Both the position numbers and the translations under genes were made by a program. From NCBI GenBank assembly GCA_027022365.1, contig JALVYU010000026.1:186001-250000 (forward strand): a stretch of 64,000 nucleotides of DNA, read 5' to 3'. The notes beneath the pieces are model-generated. The model ran no database searches, was not told the origin of the DNA, and was given only the letters and a program-made list of their open reading frames with translations. How positions within the stretch are numbered: position 1 is the stretch's first letter; each line of letters begins with the position of its first letter. This document shows, in pieces, positions 646 to 16,855 of this stretch. The DNA comes from Desulfurococcales archaeon. GTDB lineage: Archaea > Thermoproteota > Thermoprotei_A > Sulfolobales > Desulfurococcaceae.

Positions 646-1815
646 TTGGTGTTTAAACTTGGTTTTGCGACAACATACCCCCCCACTCACTGTGGCATTG
701 CCGAGTACTCTCGCATGCTTTTAATGGCTATGAAATCCATTATGCCCTCTATCGAGGCATATGTTTTCGCGGACAGGCTCGGCGGTGACAAGAGATTCGA
801 CGAGTTCGCCCGTGTAAAGGTTTATCCGTCCTTTACTCATCAGGAGAGGGGTTACGGCGGATTACTCGATAAGCTTACGGAACTCGGCGGAGTCGATGTT
901 CTTCATGTACAGCACGAGTACGGTATCTTTGGCCTGCACAACGGGTTGATCCATGCTGTTGAGGAAGCTGTCAGGGAGAGGCTTGCAAAGAAGATAGTTA
1001 TAACCATGCACACAGTTGATCACCCGAACTCGCCGAGAAAGGCGGCGATAGAGTTCCAGTCCTATCTAAATGTTTTCGATGCCGTCATCGTGCACAGCGT
1101 CCTCCAGGAATTTGAACTACAACACCAGGATATCCACCCACTAAAAATATATAGGATCCCCCATGGAACCATGTTGAACCCATACCTCTGGATGCCGAGA
1201 TTCAAGTTAATGGAGGAGCTCGGCCTCAAATCAGAGCAGCTACGGGGCTTCATAGTTGTTGTCCCGGGTTTTCTCAGGAAGGATAAGGGTTTCGACATAC
1301 TTGTCAGGGCCGTCAAGCCATTGTTGAAGGAGAGGGGTTTTACTCTTATCGTTGCAGGGGAGACGAAGGATCCTGTTCTTAGGCGGGAGCTCGAGGAGAT
1401 GATCAGGAACGGGCCCAATACGATCTTCATAGAGCGGTATCTGGCCAATGAAGAAATACTCAAACTCGTGGCCCTGGCCGACGCCGTCGTGCTACCATAT
1501 AGAGATAGGCCTAAATCCTATAGCGTGTCCGGCATACTTCATCTCTCCATGGGCGGGTTGAAGCCGATCATAGGTACTAGGACGCCTAGGCTGATCGAGC
1601 TATACCAGCACGCCCCACGCCTCACAGTCCCGCCGAAATCACCGAGGGAATTAACAAAGAAGATCAGGTGGCTGTCGAAGAACTATGACCTCGCAATAGC
1701 GTATATGGGGTCGCTATACAGCTATGCTGTGAGAACTCAGTGGCTGAGAATGGCCCGCAGGCACTTGTCCCTCTACGCCTACCTCTTGGGAGTCGACCGT
1801 GTGACCGATATCTAG
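646..1815 (+). CDS. GT4-family glycosyltransferase
   Basis: A 389-residue GT-B fold glycosyltransferase. The N-terminal half opens with KLGFATTYPPTHCGIAEYS, the usual donor/acceptor loop pattern of family 4 enzymes, followed by HVQHEYGIF. The C-terminal nucleotide-sugar domain contains VVPGFLRKDKGFD and the E-x7-E type region NEEILKLVALADAVVLPYR. Start chosen is TTG at 646 with GGAGAGGTGG upstream; GTG at 649 is equally possible. No signal peptide or membrane segment is seen, so it probably acts at the cytoplasmic face on a sugar nucleotide. The acceptor is unknown. It overlaps nothing before it and is followed within 50 bases by the macro domain gene. Confidence 0.8.
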   Translation: MVFKLGFATTYPPTHCGIAEYSRMLLMAMKSIMPSIEAYVFADRLGGDKRFDEFARVKVYPSFTHQERGYGGLLDKLTELGGVDVLHVQHEYGIFGLHNGLIHAVEEAVRERLAKKIVITMHTVDHPNSPRKAAIEFQSYLNVFDAVIVHSVLQEFELQHQDIHPLKIYRIPHGTMLNPYLWMPRFKLMEELGLKSEQLRGFIVVVPGFLRKDKGFDILVRAVKPLLKERGFTLIVAGETKDPVLRRELEEMIRNGPNTIFIERYLANEEILKLVALADAVVLPYRDRPKSYSVSGILHLSMGGLKPIIGTRTPRLIELYQHAPRLTVPPKSPRELTKKIRWLSKNYDLAIAYMGSLYSYAVRTQWLRMARRHLSLYAYLLGVDRVTDI

Positions 1816-14478: not shown

Positions 14479-14495
14479 TGGTAGCGGGGGGTGGA

Positions 14496-15207
14496 TTCTC
14501 CCGGGGCGGCTGTCCGCAGAGTCTTATTCGCTATATGTAATGAGTATTATTGACCCTTTTAAAACTTACTACAAATCTTAGTCAAAGCCCTTTTCTCAGC
14601 TTGATGATGAATATCCATGATGTTATATAGATTGCATACGTTATCTTTTCTACTAATAACTAATCTATAAAATCCCCAGGTCTCGCCATAATTATATCTT
14701 AGAATCTATGCTGATTTTCCTAAGCATTTTGAATATCTAACACTCCGTAATAGTTCACAGAATTGATGATAACTCTATGTTTTTGTTTATCAATATGTCC
14801 TTCATCTATAAATGCTGAGATCCAATTAATGAGTATATTGGGACTTTTTCTTATGAATGCCTGTGCTCTCCATAATTTTTGAATTATTTGCACCTAAACG
14901 TCTAAGTGTGTAGTAAAGATATCTTGATTTAACTCTTGCTATATAGACGTGTTTTTGGATGAATATACAATAGTCGGGCTTATCTTCAAAACATCATATA
15001 TGTCTCTGGCAAATGAACTAATTAGTTCAATTGATTTATTAATATATTCTATAATGTAACGTTTTCCTCTATCTCCTTTCTCGACATATATATGTCCATC
15101 TCCGCAAATATGTGCATGAATCCTTGCAAAATAAGGATTATCCATTAAGGACATGTTATTCCCGTTTTAGATAGAATAGGAGAATATAAAGCGGACAGCC
15201 GCCCCGT
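14496..15207 (-). mobile_element. Intron 3 of tRNA-iMet: 712-nt intron in the T loop with a decayed homing endonuclease gene
   Basis: The T arm GGTGG-TTCAAA ends at 15208 and resumes with TCCACC at 14495. Adenines on both sides leave the junction ambiguous among 57/58, 58/59 and 59/60. The intron ends form a perfect 15-bp stem, GGGGCGGCTGTCCGC (15205-15191) with its complement (14517-14503). The interior is AT-rich and contains the remains of a LAGLIDADG gene in the same orientation as the tRNA. The bulge-helix-bulge here is less regular than at intron 1. Confidence 0.88.
14559..15154 (-). pseudogene. Decayed LAGLIDADG homing endonuclease gene in intron 3
   Basis: The first 71 codons (15154-14939) read MSLMDNPYFARIHAHICGDG and then EKGDRGKRYIIEYINKS, a first LAGLIDADG-type motif with its acidic residue and following strands; then a stop. 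The match continues in shifted frames: YIARVKSRYLYYTLRRLGAN, then NWISAFIDEGHIDKQKHRV (second motif), then GFYRLVISRKDNVCNLYNI and AEKRALTKICSKF, ending at a TAA at 14559-14561. At least three frame changes are needed. Intact length would be about 198 residues, like single-chain archaeal rRNA-intron enzymes such as I-DmoI. The product cannot be active as it stands. Confidence 0.8.
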
Positions 15208-15229
15208 TTTGAACCACCGACCTCGGGGT

Positions 15230-15250
15230 GTCCCTGAGGCGGCAGCCTCT
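15230..15250 (-). other. Intron 2 of tRNA-iMet, 21 nt, canonical 37/38 site
   Basis: Between CTCATA and ACCCCG of the anticodon arm lie 21 extra bases forming a GAGGC-TGCC-GCCTC hairpin. The position, one base 3' of the anticodon, is the standard archaeal site. It is separated from intron 1 by a seven-base exon only, so splicing order may matter. Confidence 0.9.
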
Positions 15251-15307
15251 TATGAGCTTCGCGGGGCGGGGCTACCGTCCCTGCTACTACCTTTATTATT
15301 GGGGGTC

Positions 15308-15481
15308 TTATAAAGTTTTATTCTTAGGTGTTATGAGTAAGCCTTTTCTTTTATTGTTAATATAAATTTCGACACTAAGTTCTATCCCTTCTTTCCAGCC
15401 TAAGGCTTCAACTAATTGTTTTGGTAGTGTTATTTCATAGGTGTAATATTTTTGTTTACCTTTCCTCTTTCTAAGTTTCAT
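15308..15481 (-). CDS. Small AbrB-like (SpoVT-AbrB fold) DNA-binding protein inside tRNA intron 1
   Basis: A 57-codon gene. After a basic start (MKLRKRKGKQKYYTY) it reads EITLPKQLVEALGWKEG, then IELSVEIYI and RKGLLITPKNKTL: the swapped-hairpin AbrB pattern with a strand, LPK-x-LVEALGW helix and K-E-G turn. Members bind DNA as dimers and usually autoregulate. GGTGA lies four bases before the ATG, and a TATA-like element lies 20-35 bases upstream. It is transcribed in the tRNA direction, divergent from the endonuclease gene with 83 bases between the start codons. A repressor of the endonuclease is a natural but unproven role. Confidence 0.75.
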   Translation of the reverse strand: MKLRKRKGKQKYYTYEITLPKQLVEALGWKEGIELSVEIYINNKRKGLLITPKNKTL

Positions 15482-15518
15482 TATTTCACCAAGAAATACT
15501 ATATAATCGTAGATAATA

Positions 15519-15560
15519 AATTTATATAGGAATTCTTTACAGAATTCCTAACAGAGGTGA
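15519..15560 (+). promoter_or_regulatory. Endonuclease promoter with palindromic operator and ribosome binding site
   Basis: TATA box ATTTATATA at 15520-15528 is followed at once by a perfect inverted repeat GGAATTC-TTTACA-GAATTCC (15529-15548), then GAGGTGA (15554-15560) and the ATG at 15565. The palindrome covers the bases between TATA and the expected transcription start near 15550, where a bound dimer would block TFB or polymerase. The adjacent AbrB-like protein is the obvious candidate ligand. Confidence 0.65.
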
Positions 15561-15564
15561 AGAA

Positions 15565-16644
15565 ATGAAGCAGTCTATGGGTAATATTATCGCAAATTTG
15601 CTGGAAAATTATGGATCAAACTATCTTAATAAATGGAAATCAAGAGAACATTTACTGGGTAGAAGAAAGTTTTTGGTATATAATGTCGATGAACAAATAA
15701 AGTCAGAAATTCTATTTCTTCTTTATAAAGAACTTCACAACATAAAAACAACTACCTTTAAAGAAGTAAAGTTCTTGAGTAAGTGCTTAGTAATTAGGTC
15801 AACGCATGAGGCCCCGCTATGGTATAGATTAGGCTTAGCATTAAGCGATGGCTCTGTCCTAGGTAAAAGTAATATAATATTCTCTACATCAAAACCACAC
15901 ACAATAGATGCCGTGATGTATGGATTTAGTTATATAAAGATCTACGTAGCTAGATACATGCTAAGTATAAAAACTAACAAGATAATACCTGTTATTAACA
16001 TCGTAGTGAAGGATCCGGATACTGCATTACTTCTAAGACGTATTAAAGAAAACAAACTAGATACGGATCAATTTATAGATGCACTAGTTAATGATAGAAT
16101 GGCGTTGGCACAATTCCTAGCTGGGATAATAGATGGTGATGGAAGTATAGATTGTGATAATATAAGAATATGCATTGATAAACGTGATCCTCTATACACG
16201 ATTTTACAAAAAATCTTTAGAAATAATTTGGTTTATGATGAAAAACGATATATGTTAAGGATAAAAACACGAGCCGTTAGGGAACTAAGCATTTTAGAAG
16301 AACTAATAAATAACATAGTCTCGGAACATAAGAAAACTATGATTAAAAGAATCCTGAGAAAAAGAAAAAGATTCGTTCTAAACAACATCACATTAACAAA
16401 TTATAAAATTAAAGAAATCCTAGACAAACTTGATAATGATGATCTAAAAACACTTACCTTATTTAAATTTAGAAAAAAGCAAAAATATACCTATGCATAC
16501 ATCTCCTTTAACAAAAAGAATAAAAACTATATATTCAGCTTAATTAACAAGCTACTCTATAAAATAGAATCCGTACTTTTCTTAAACCTCCTCGATTCTG
16601 TTAAGGAAGGTAACAGAGAATATGTAATTTATAACAAAGAATAG
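15565..16644 (+). CDS. LAGLIDADG homing endonuclease, intact, antisense within tRNA-iMet intron 1
   Basis: A 359-residue protein with two LAGLIDADG-type motifs: YRLGLALSDGS at about 88-97 (acidic residue D95) and QFLAGIIDGDG at about 183-193. A lysine-rich C-terminal third follows. Two motifs in one chain means a monomeric endonuclease recognising an asymmetric site, here presumably the intron-less initiator tRNA gene. The gene has its own TATA box and Shine-Dalgarno and runs opposite to the tRNA, so it cannot be translated from the spliced-out intron RNA. It is clearly more AT-rich than the flanking genes. The reading frame is uninterrupted, suggesting recent activity or selection. Confidence 0.9.
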   Translation: MKQSMGNIIANLLENYGSNYLNKWKSREHLLGRRKFLVYNVDEQIKSEILFLLYKELHNIKTTTFKEVKFLSKCLVIRSTHEAPLWYRLGLALSDGSVLGKSNIIFSTSKPHTIDAVMYGFSYIKIYVARYMLSIKTNKIIPVINIVVKDPDTALLLRRIKENKLDTDQFIDALVNDRMALAQFLAGIIDGDGSIDCDNIRICIDKRDPLYTILQKIFRNNLVYDEKRYMLRIKTRAVRELSILEELINNIVSEHKKTMIKRILRKRKRFVLNNITLTNYKIKEILDKLDNDDLKTLTLFKFRKKQKYTYAYISFNKKNKNYIFSLINKLLYKIESVLFLNLLDSVKEGNREYVIYNKE

Positions 16645-16774
16645 TAGAACTTATCAAAACACTTAGAATATATATTGAGATGGGGAAGGGACGGTAGCCC
16701 CTGCACCTCCCGCGGGCTACCTGGCTGCCCTACCCCGCTGTTTTGCCCCGCCGTATTGTTTGTGGTGTTTTTCG

Positions 16775-16790
16775 GTGGTTATAAGGTTTT
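16775..16790 (-). promoter_or_regulatory. TATA box for the initiator tRNA gene
   Basis: On the minus strand GAAAACCTTATAACC places a BRE-like purine run before TTATAA (16784-16779), about 40 bases upstream of the first tRNA base at 16739. With a start 26 bases downstream of the box the 5' leader would be about 17 bases, removed by RNase P. It lies in the gap after the SerK-like gene, so the tRNA appears to have its own promoter. Confidence 0.6.
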
Positions 16791-16855
16791 CTGGGCTTTT
16801 CTTCTTGTTGTGTTGTTTCTTTCTAGGAGGAGGGAGAGGGGAGGGGAAAAAGGAG

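Follow-up and report, generated by a model that had tools for sequence, protein, structure and literature searches.

How can an archaeon make its initiator tRNA from a gene that lies in four pieces, with endonuclease sequences in two of the gaps? The question is raised by the initiator tRNA-Met gene (iMet) on the minus strand of a 64,000-nt stretch (the window) of contig JALVYU010000026.1, from a heat-loving Desulfurococcales archaeon. Judged on its sequence, the gene in the window probably yields its tRNA from three parts spliced in trans (a tri-split tRNA), and the 21-nt interruption at 37/38 (tRNA numbering) is probably an ordinary intron. In what we regard as the best explanation, and a likely one, two homing cassettes invaded a single iMet, the parts of which would now be transcribed as separate RNAs and spliced in trans.

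The gene was reconstructed from exon 1 (tRNA positions 1-30; 16709..16739 (-)), exon 2 (positions 31-37, with the anticodon CAT; 15251..15257 (-)), exon 3 (positions 38-59; 15208..15229 (-)) and exon 4 (positions 60-76, with the encoded CCA; 14479..14495 (-)). Joined, the four exons give the 77-mer AGCGGGGTAGGGCAGCCAGGTAGCCCGCGGGGCTCATAACCCCGAGGTCGGTGGTTCAAATCCACCCCCCGCTACCA, the unconstrained fold of which is a perfect cloverleaf (-36.1 kcal/mol) with the features of an initiator: A1-U72, an anticodon stem CGGGG/CCCCG with three G-C pairs at its base, anticodon CAT and encoded CCA. The interruptions measure 1,451 nt at 30/31, 21 nt at 37/38 and 712 nt at 59/60. Both the exon-intron structure and the reading as a complete initiator tRNA had been put forward in a preliminary description of this DNA, which proved exact to the base. 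The same 77-mer is found uninterrupted, with 100% identity across its full length, in G001, G016 and G017 (genomes and loci are cited by our own handles), which supply the precise empty site, and at 97-99% identity in dozens more genomes. Against the relatives' uninterrupted iMet, exon 1 matches the 5' part at 100%, and exons 3 and 4 also match; the identity of the gene and its junctions are therefore secure, beyond chance.

The host genome (1.74 Mb, 99.97% complete) is a draft of 44 contigs, and its tRNA inventory was made on pieces of the genome. No second, uninterrupted iMet was found in it by BLAST at E<=10, the 100% matches being the three fragments only, and the gene is thus single-copy, which answers a question raised in the preliminary description. 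Two other CAT tRNAs were considered as alternative initiators and rejected: L009, the sole other archaeal one found, has G1-C72 instead of the initiator A1-U72, and L014 is a bacterial-type tRNA, not an initiator, on a tiny contig (G000:C1; 5,354 bp) that is probably contamination of the assembly. The interrupted gene was missed by both tRNA finders tried, ARAGORN and Rfam tRNA, and genomes of this kind may thus seem to lack an essential initiator tRNA. No covariance-model match to a group I or other Rfam intron was obtained in the window iMet, and a group I identity for its segments was rejected.

Promoter elements, arms and endonuclease genes

Both long interruptions appear to have the layout of a cassette: between two complementary arms, one at the 5' and one at the 3' end, stand a LAGLIDADG endonuclease gene and, after it, a tRNA-type promoter. 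The promoter elements were scored with a matrix built from 33 tRNA upstream regions of the window genome, matches being counted at a score of >=10. The 5' fragment has a B recognition element (BRE)/TATA promoter element, GAAAACCTTATAA (16779..16791 (-); score 12.2), 52 nt before exon 1. Within the 30/31 cassette, the element for the middle fragment, TAAAACTTTATAA (15308..15320 (-)), scores 12.3; it begins 63 nt ahead of the 3' junction and occupies the same place in relatives. Within the 59/60 cassette, the element for the 3' fragment, GTAAGTTTTAAAA (14557..14569 (-)), scores 10.3, begins 74 nt ahead of exon 4 and is identical in a near-identical named record, the Desulfurococcales metagenome-assembled genome WAPN01000006.1 (WAPN01), and in G078. 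On the tRNA strand of this locus, exons 1 and 4 are each preceded by a match and exon 2 by two, including one at 15361; the background rate is 0.25 per kb per strand.

The position of these elements recurs in other genomes, where the TATA starts 58-74 nt before the downstream exon in nearly all long and medium segments, and 81-89 nt before it where a further mini-intron intervenes. Using an interval fixed after inspection, a TATA was present at the expected place in 23 non-redundant long or medium segments, 17 of them with p<0.05 (Fisher p about 1e-17); nine later segments, including those in tRNA-Trp and tRNA-Ala, gave p=1.3e-5 with the same interval. The sole control, one 16S rRNA homing intron bearing a homing endonuclease gene (HEG), has no such TATA element. 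Where a cassette carries its endonuclease gene in sense orientation, the stop codon of that gene falls at or close to the TATA, which therefore cannot serve the endonuclease. As far as sequence can tell, then, the downstream fragments have promoters of their own.

The arms of each segment are GC-rich and pair over roughly 12-20 bp to form a bulge-helix-bulge, as the arms of split tRNAs do. At 30/31, cofolding pairs the 5' arm, AGGTGCAGGGGCTACCGTCCC (16688..16708 (-)), with 15281-15258, that is, with the complementary 3' arm, GGGACGGTAGCCCCGCCCCGCGAA (15258..15281 (-)). At 59/60, fold and arm-pairing analysis join the 5' arm, ACGGGGCGGCTGTCCGC (15191..15207 (-)), through 16 consecutive pairs to the 3' arm, GCGGACAGCCGCCCCGGGAGAA (14496..14517 (-)). 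The arms have coevolved: cognate pairing beat non-cognate pairing at all three iMet sites (p=5e-5, 5e-5 and 1.4e-3), the 30/31 arms giving p=5e-5. The interruption at 37/38 (15230..15250 (-)) looks like an ordinary cis-intron; it stands at the canonical archaeal position, and an intron of 21 nt is also present in G075, G076, G077, G078 and WAPN01.

The 30/31 cassette carries a homing endonuclease gene of 359 aa antisense to the tRNA (15565..16644 (+)). Its product contains the motifs LGLALSDGS and LAGIIDGDG and gave a Pfam LAGLIDADG_3 match below the cut-off (E 5e-4). Searched by sequence it had no match among solved structures, and matches came by fold: an AlphaFold model (predicted local distance difference test, pLDDT, 87.8) was nearest to I-Tsp061I, an archaeal intron-encoded homing endonuclease, and then to other LAGLIDADG enzymes, including I-DmoI. 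The two motifs and the fold identify it as a LAGLIDADG homing endonuclease. It is near-intact, with a C-terminus about 15-20 residues shorter than in intact relatives, and complete frames exist in G077, G064, G226, G160 and others. No relative was found among viral contigs. The same cassette holds a 57-aa MazE/AbrB-like open reading frame (ORF; 15308..15481 (-); Pfam MazE_antitoxin E 5.6e-5, just below the cut-off), conserved in WAPN01, the stop of which overlaps the internal TATA element; it is possibly a regulator of the cassette.

The 59/60 cassette retains the remnant of a LAGLIDADG endonuclease gene of ~200 aa on the sense strand (14660..15154, the end being approximate; (-)), broken by in-frame stops and a frameshift. 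The remnant, with two TAG codons inside, matched an intact 218-aa relative in G160 (E 1.6e-24), which itself matched Pfam LAGLIDADG_3 at 1e-13, and the congener G078 has an intact, open 200-aa copy. The earlier statement that two of the segments carry LAGLIDADG genes was thus right as to the presence of endonuclease sequences in both; the genes themselves, one antisense and C-terminally shortened, the other decayed, are less than it implied.

Interrupted and inverted initiator genes in relatives

The survey covered 229 genomes of the class, followed by a phylum-wide search. The locus is not a singleton: 23 of the 229 genomes bear endonuclease cassettes in iMet, across the three sites 30/31, 37/38 and 59/60. 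Relatives of the 30/31 endonuclease occur in 11 genomes. Nine have theirs within or next to iMet exons, and the other two, of one genus, have theirs in tRNA-Trp(CCA), again at 30/31, so that every relative in the 229 genomes sits in iMet or tRNA-Trp. Another endonuclease, absent from the window, is found at 37/38 in ten genomes (one in another order), always in iMet. The 59/60 type lies in iMet in 11 of 14 genomes and, in one of the remaining genomes, in a 16S rRNA intron.

The tRNA-Trp(CCA) genes are cut by a cassette of 717-750 nt with a sense LAGLIDADG gene of ~220 aa (L061:1165-2060 (-); L062:1433-2293 (+); G108/G107). They have a TATA 63 nt before the downstream part and keep their usual C/D-box-type intron at 37/38. 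Beside the L061 gene lies a tRNA-Val (~920-1043 (-)) that an integrase-like ORF interrupts after its 5' part, probably an integrated element. The phylum-wide search added a tRNA-Ala(UGC) in another family (G507; L227:1303-2162), in which a 783-nt cassette interrupts the gene at 37/38. This cassette holds a LAGLIDADG gene of 219 aa, its arms are complementary, and its TATA is 60 nt ahead of the downstream part; a related hit lies near a tRNA in G453 (L228).

Pattern searches showed an interruption of iMet at 30/31 in 34 genomes and at 59/60 in 21, the window included, and at 37/38 without a 30/31 interruption in at least 19; in relatives the interruptions are often of 21-62 nt only. Two further observations concern the 37/38 site. 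In one 1.6-kb segment (L173; G114) the place of the endonuclease gene is taken by an archaeal ATPase_2/DUF234 gene, and an extra mini-intron of ~20 nt occurs a few bases downstream of the 37/38 cassette, in the anticodon stem, in G073, G161, G162, G164, G004, G140, G059 and G084.

In four relatives (G155, G157, G160 and G111) the 5' and 3' parts of iMet lie on opposite strands, with promoter-like elements and complementary arms kept. Such an arrangement makes cis-splicing impossible: if these genomes make the tRNA, they must do so by trans-splicing. In G157 some 185 bp separate the halves, with no endonuclease left; the distance is 2.4 kb in G111 (L172, L223), where no endonuclease gene was recognised between them and a terminator-like run of T stands just after the 5' arm. 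The iMet sites as a whole thus present the uninterrupted gene, a cassette with its endonuclease intact, one with the endonuclease decayed, a short promoter-only spacer, flipped halves and a mini-intron. As all these intermediates occur at one essential gene, a selfish-endonuclease origin of split tRNAs becomes directly testable.

Probable splicing in trans and its alternatives

The sequences establish the arms and their coevolution, the endonuclease genes, whether open or decayed, the conserved promoter-like elements and the exact empty site; DNA cutting, homing, the transcription start sites and trans-splicing are steps that we infer. The endonuclease would cut an uninterrupted iMet, and repair would copy the cassette in (homing). 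Three promoters would then yield three RNAs, comprising (i) exon 1, (ii) exons 2 and 3 with the 21-nt intron, and (iii) exon 4, which the GC-rich arms would hold together in bulge-helix-bulge junctions. A two-subunit splicing endonuclease would cut these junctions for ligation in trans and remove the 37/38 intron in cis; two splicing-endonuclease subunits are encoded in the window genome, and the heterotetrameric crenarchaeal enzyme has been linked to split tRNAs (PMC3218864). By leaving an essential tRNA gene split yet working, a cassette might cost its host little, and after fixation its endonuclease would decay, with deletion, inversion or dispersal leaving a classical split tRNA.

Several results weigh against this explanation. 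In the window the fragments are collinear, all in order on one strand, and a read-through RNA could therefore be cis-spliced in the manner of HEG-bearing rRNA introns. AT-rich DNA often contains TATA-like words, and some segments are not significant alone (G157, G073, G114 and G158, and G084 and G082 of the later set). Both endonuclease genes in the window look impaired, and the endonuclease trees do not firmly show transfer between hosts: host-transfer tests gave approximately unbiased (AU) p values of 0.105 (30/31) and 0.095 (37/38, a tree in which the G059 row was in the wrong frame and is without meaning). The case for mobility rests, accordingly, on the specificity of the endonucleases for their sites, on their patchy distribution and on the empty sites. 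As to collinearity, the tRNA-Asp of Aeropyrum pernix is split although its halves are collinear and adjacent (PMC3218864), so that non-collinearity is not required of a split tRNA.

The same collinearity speaks for the alternative closest to the preliminary description, in which one long precursor would contain three bulge-helix-bulge introns spliced in cis, the two large ones being mobile and bearing endonuclease genes, as happens in archaeal rRNA. For cis-splicing the arms would be just as suitable, LAGLIDADG-bearing archaeal rRNA introns are known and are spliced (PMC4496867), and the 59/60 endonuclease has a relative in a 16S rRNA intron. We nevertheless consider this alternative unlikely. 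The internal promoters are conserved and point in the tRNA direction, which argues against excision from a single precursor as the main route, and the rRNA homing intron that was checked has none; the 30/31 endonuclease gene is antisense, so a long precursor would not be its message; and the same fragments are inverted in four relatives. Of the three cis-introns first proposed, that at 37/38 does look like an ordinary one, while those at 30/31 and 59/60, in view of the internal TATA elements, the antisense gene and the inverted relatives, are probably not cis-introns.

An intermediate possibility, that a read-through precursor and separate fragments are both made, with cis- and trans-splicing side by side, has a parallel in A. 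pernix tRNA-Asp, for which a rare read-through product was detected by reverse transcription PCR (RT-PCR) beside the separate halves (PMC3218864). However, a tRNA precursor of 2.3 kb that runs across an antisense gene is unlikely to be a major source, and we hold this mixture to be improbable. That the locus is dead or an assembly artefact, with a working initiator tRNA elsewhere, is very improbable: this genome and most others with a split iMet are drafts, but completeness is near total with L009 and the BLAST search yielding no substitute, the exons are 90-100% conserved against 30/31 endonucleases diverged to about 35% identity, and independent assemblies show the same arrangement.

Trans-splicing of three separately transcribed RNAs therefore remains the reading that we prefer, and the locus suggests where archaeal split tRNA genes come from. 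The origin of tRNA splitting in archaea has been open since Nanoarchaeum, with integrative viruses and plasmids under suspicion (PMC3293823, PMC3218864). We lean towards regarding the cassettes as a new class of homing element that, bringing its own promoter and pairing arms in place of a dependence on cis-splicing, would on insertion instantly turn an essential tRNA gene into a trans-spliced one that works, and as the source of archaeal split tRNAs and, at 59/60, possibly of permuted tRNAs and of the mini-introns remaining at the same sites.

Comparison with known split and interrupted genes

Split tRNAs with internal promoters, tri-split tRNAs, endonuclease-bearing rRNA introns and short tRNA introns have all been published (PMC3218864, PMC10714607, PMC4496867, PMC2738675). 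The open-access literature searched yielded no case of an endonuclease gene within an archaeal tRNA or separating the fragments of a split one, and the suspicion that no such case had been described was to that extent upheld. While each component is of a kind already known, a homing cassette that combines them, bears a promoter and splits an essential tRNA had no counterpart in this literature search.

Split archaeal tRNAs include the tRNA-Asp of A. pernix and Thermosphaera, tRNA-Lys of Staphylothermus, those of Nanoarchaeum equitans and the tri-split tRNA-Gly of Caldivirga (PMC3218864). Like the window iMet, they have fragments with their own promoters, GC-rich complementary leaders and bulge-helix-bulge junctions, and 30/31 and 37/38 are known split sites (PMC3218864). 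A precedent for trans-splicing here is A. pernix tRNA-Asp, which has an internal promoter and halves seen as separate RNAs (PMC3218864), while the close halves of Thermosphaera aggregans tRNA-Asp lie on opposite strands like those of G157 (PMC3218864). None is reported with an endonuclease gene between its fragments, whereas the window iMet is cut at 30/31 and 59/60 by cassettes of that kind; mobile elements have been suspected in tRNA disruption through integrases (PMC3293823).

Archaeal rRNA homing introns (of the I-DmoI, I-Tsp061I and Pog.S1213 type) share the LAGLIDADG fold and the bulge-helix-bulge ends, and their insertion sites also hold derivatives that are decayed or reduced to a hairpin (PMC4496867). 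The window iMet differs in that the host is an essential tRNA, the cassette holds a promoter for the downstream part, and the 30/31 gene is antisense. A mobile-type intron in a bacterial initiator tRNA gene, the subject of a paper cited in PMC4496867, has the same type of host gene, but is a self-splicing group I ribozyme, a class without a match in the window iMet. Archaeal tRNA introns use the same sites and the same junction motif, and relatives have introns of 21-62 nt there; published ones measure 11-129 or 11-175 nt (PMC3218864, PMC2738675), whereas the cassettes measure 700-1600 nt and contain a gene and a promoter. Finally, the permuted tRNA-iMet and tRNA-Tyr of Thermofilum pendens have their break at 59/60, where the window iMet has its second cassette (PMC3218864). 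Unlike the window gene, they have a reversed order of pieces, one promoter and no endonuclease gene, but their permutation may descend from such a split.
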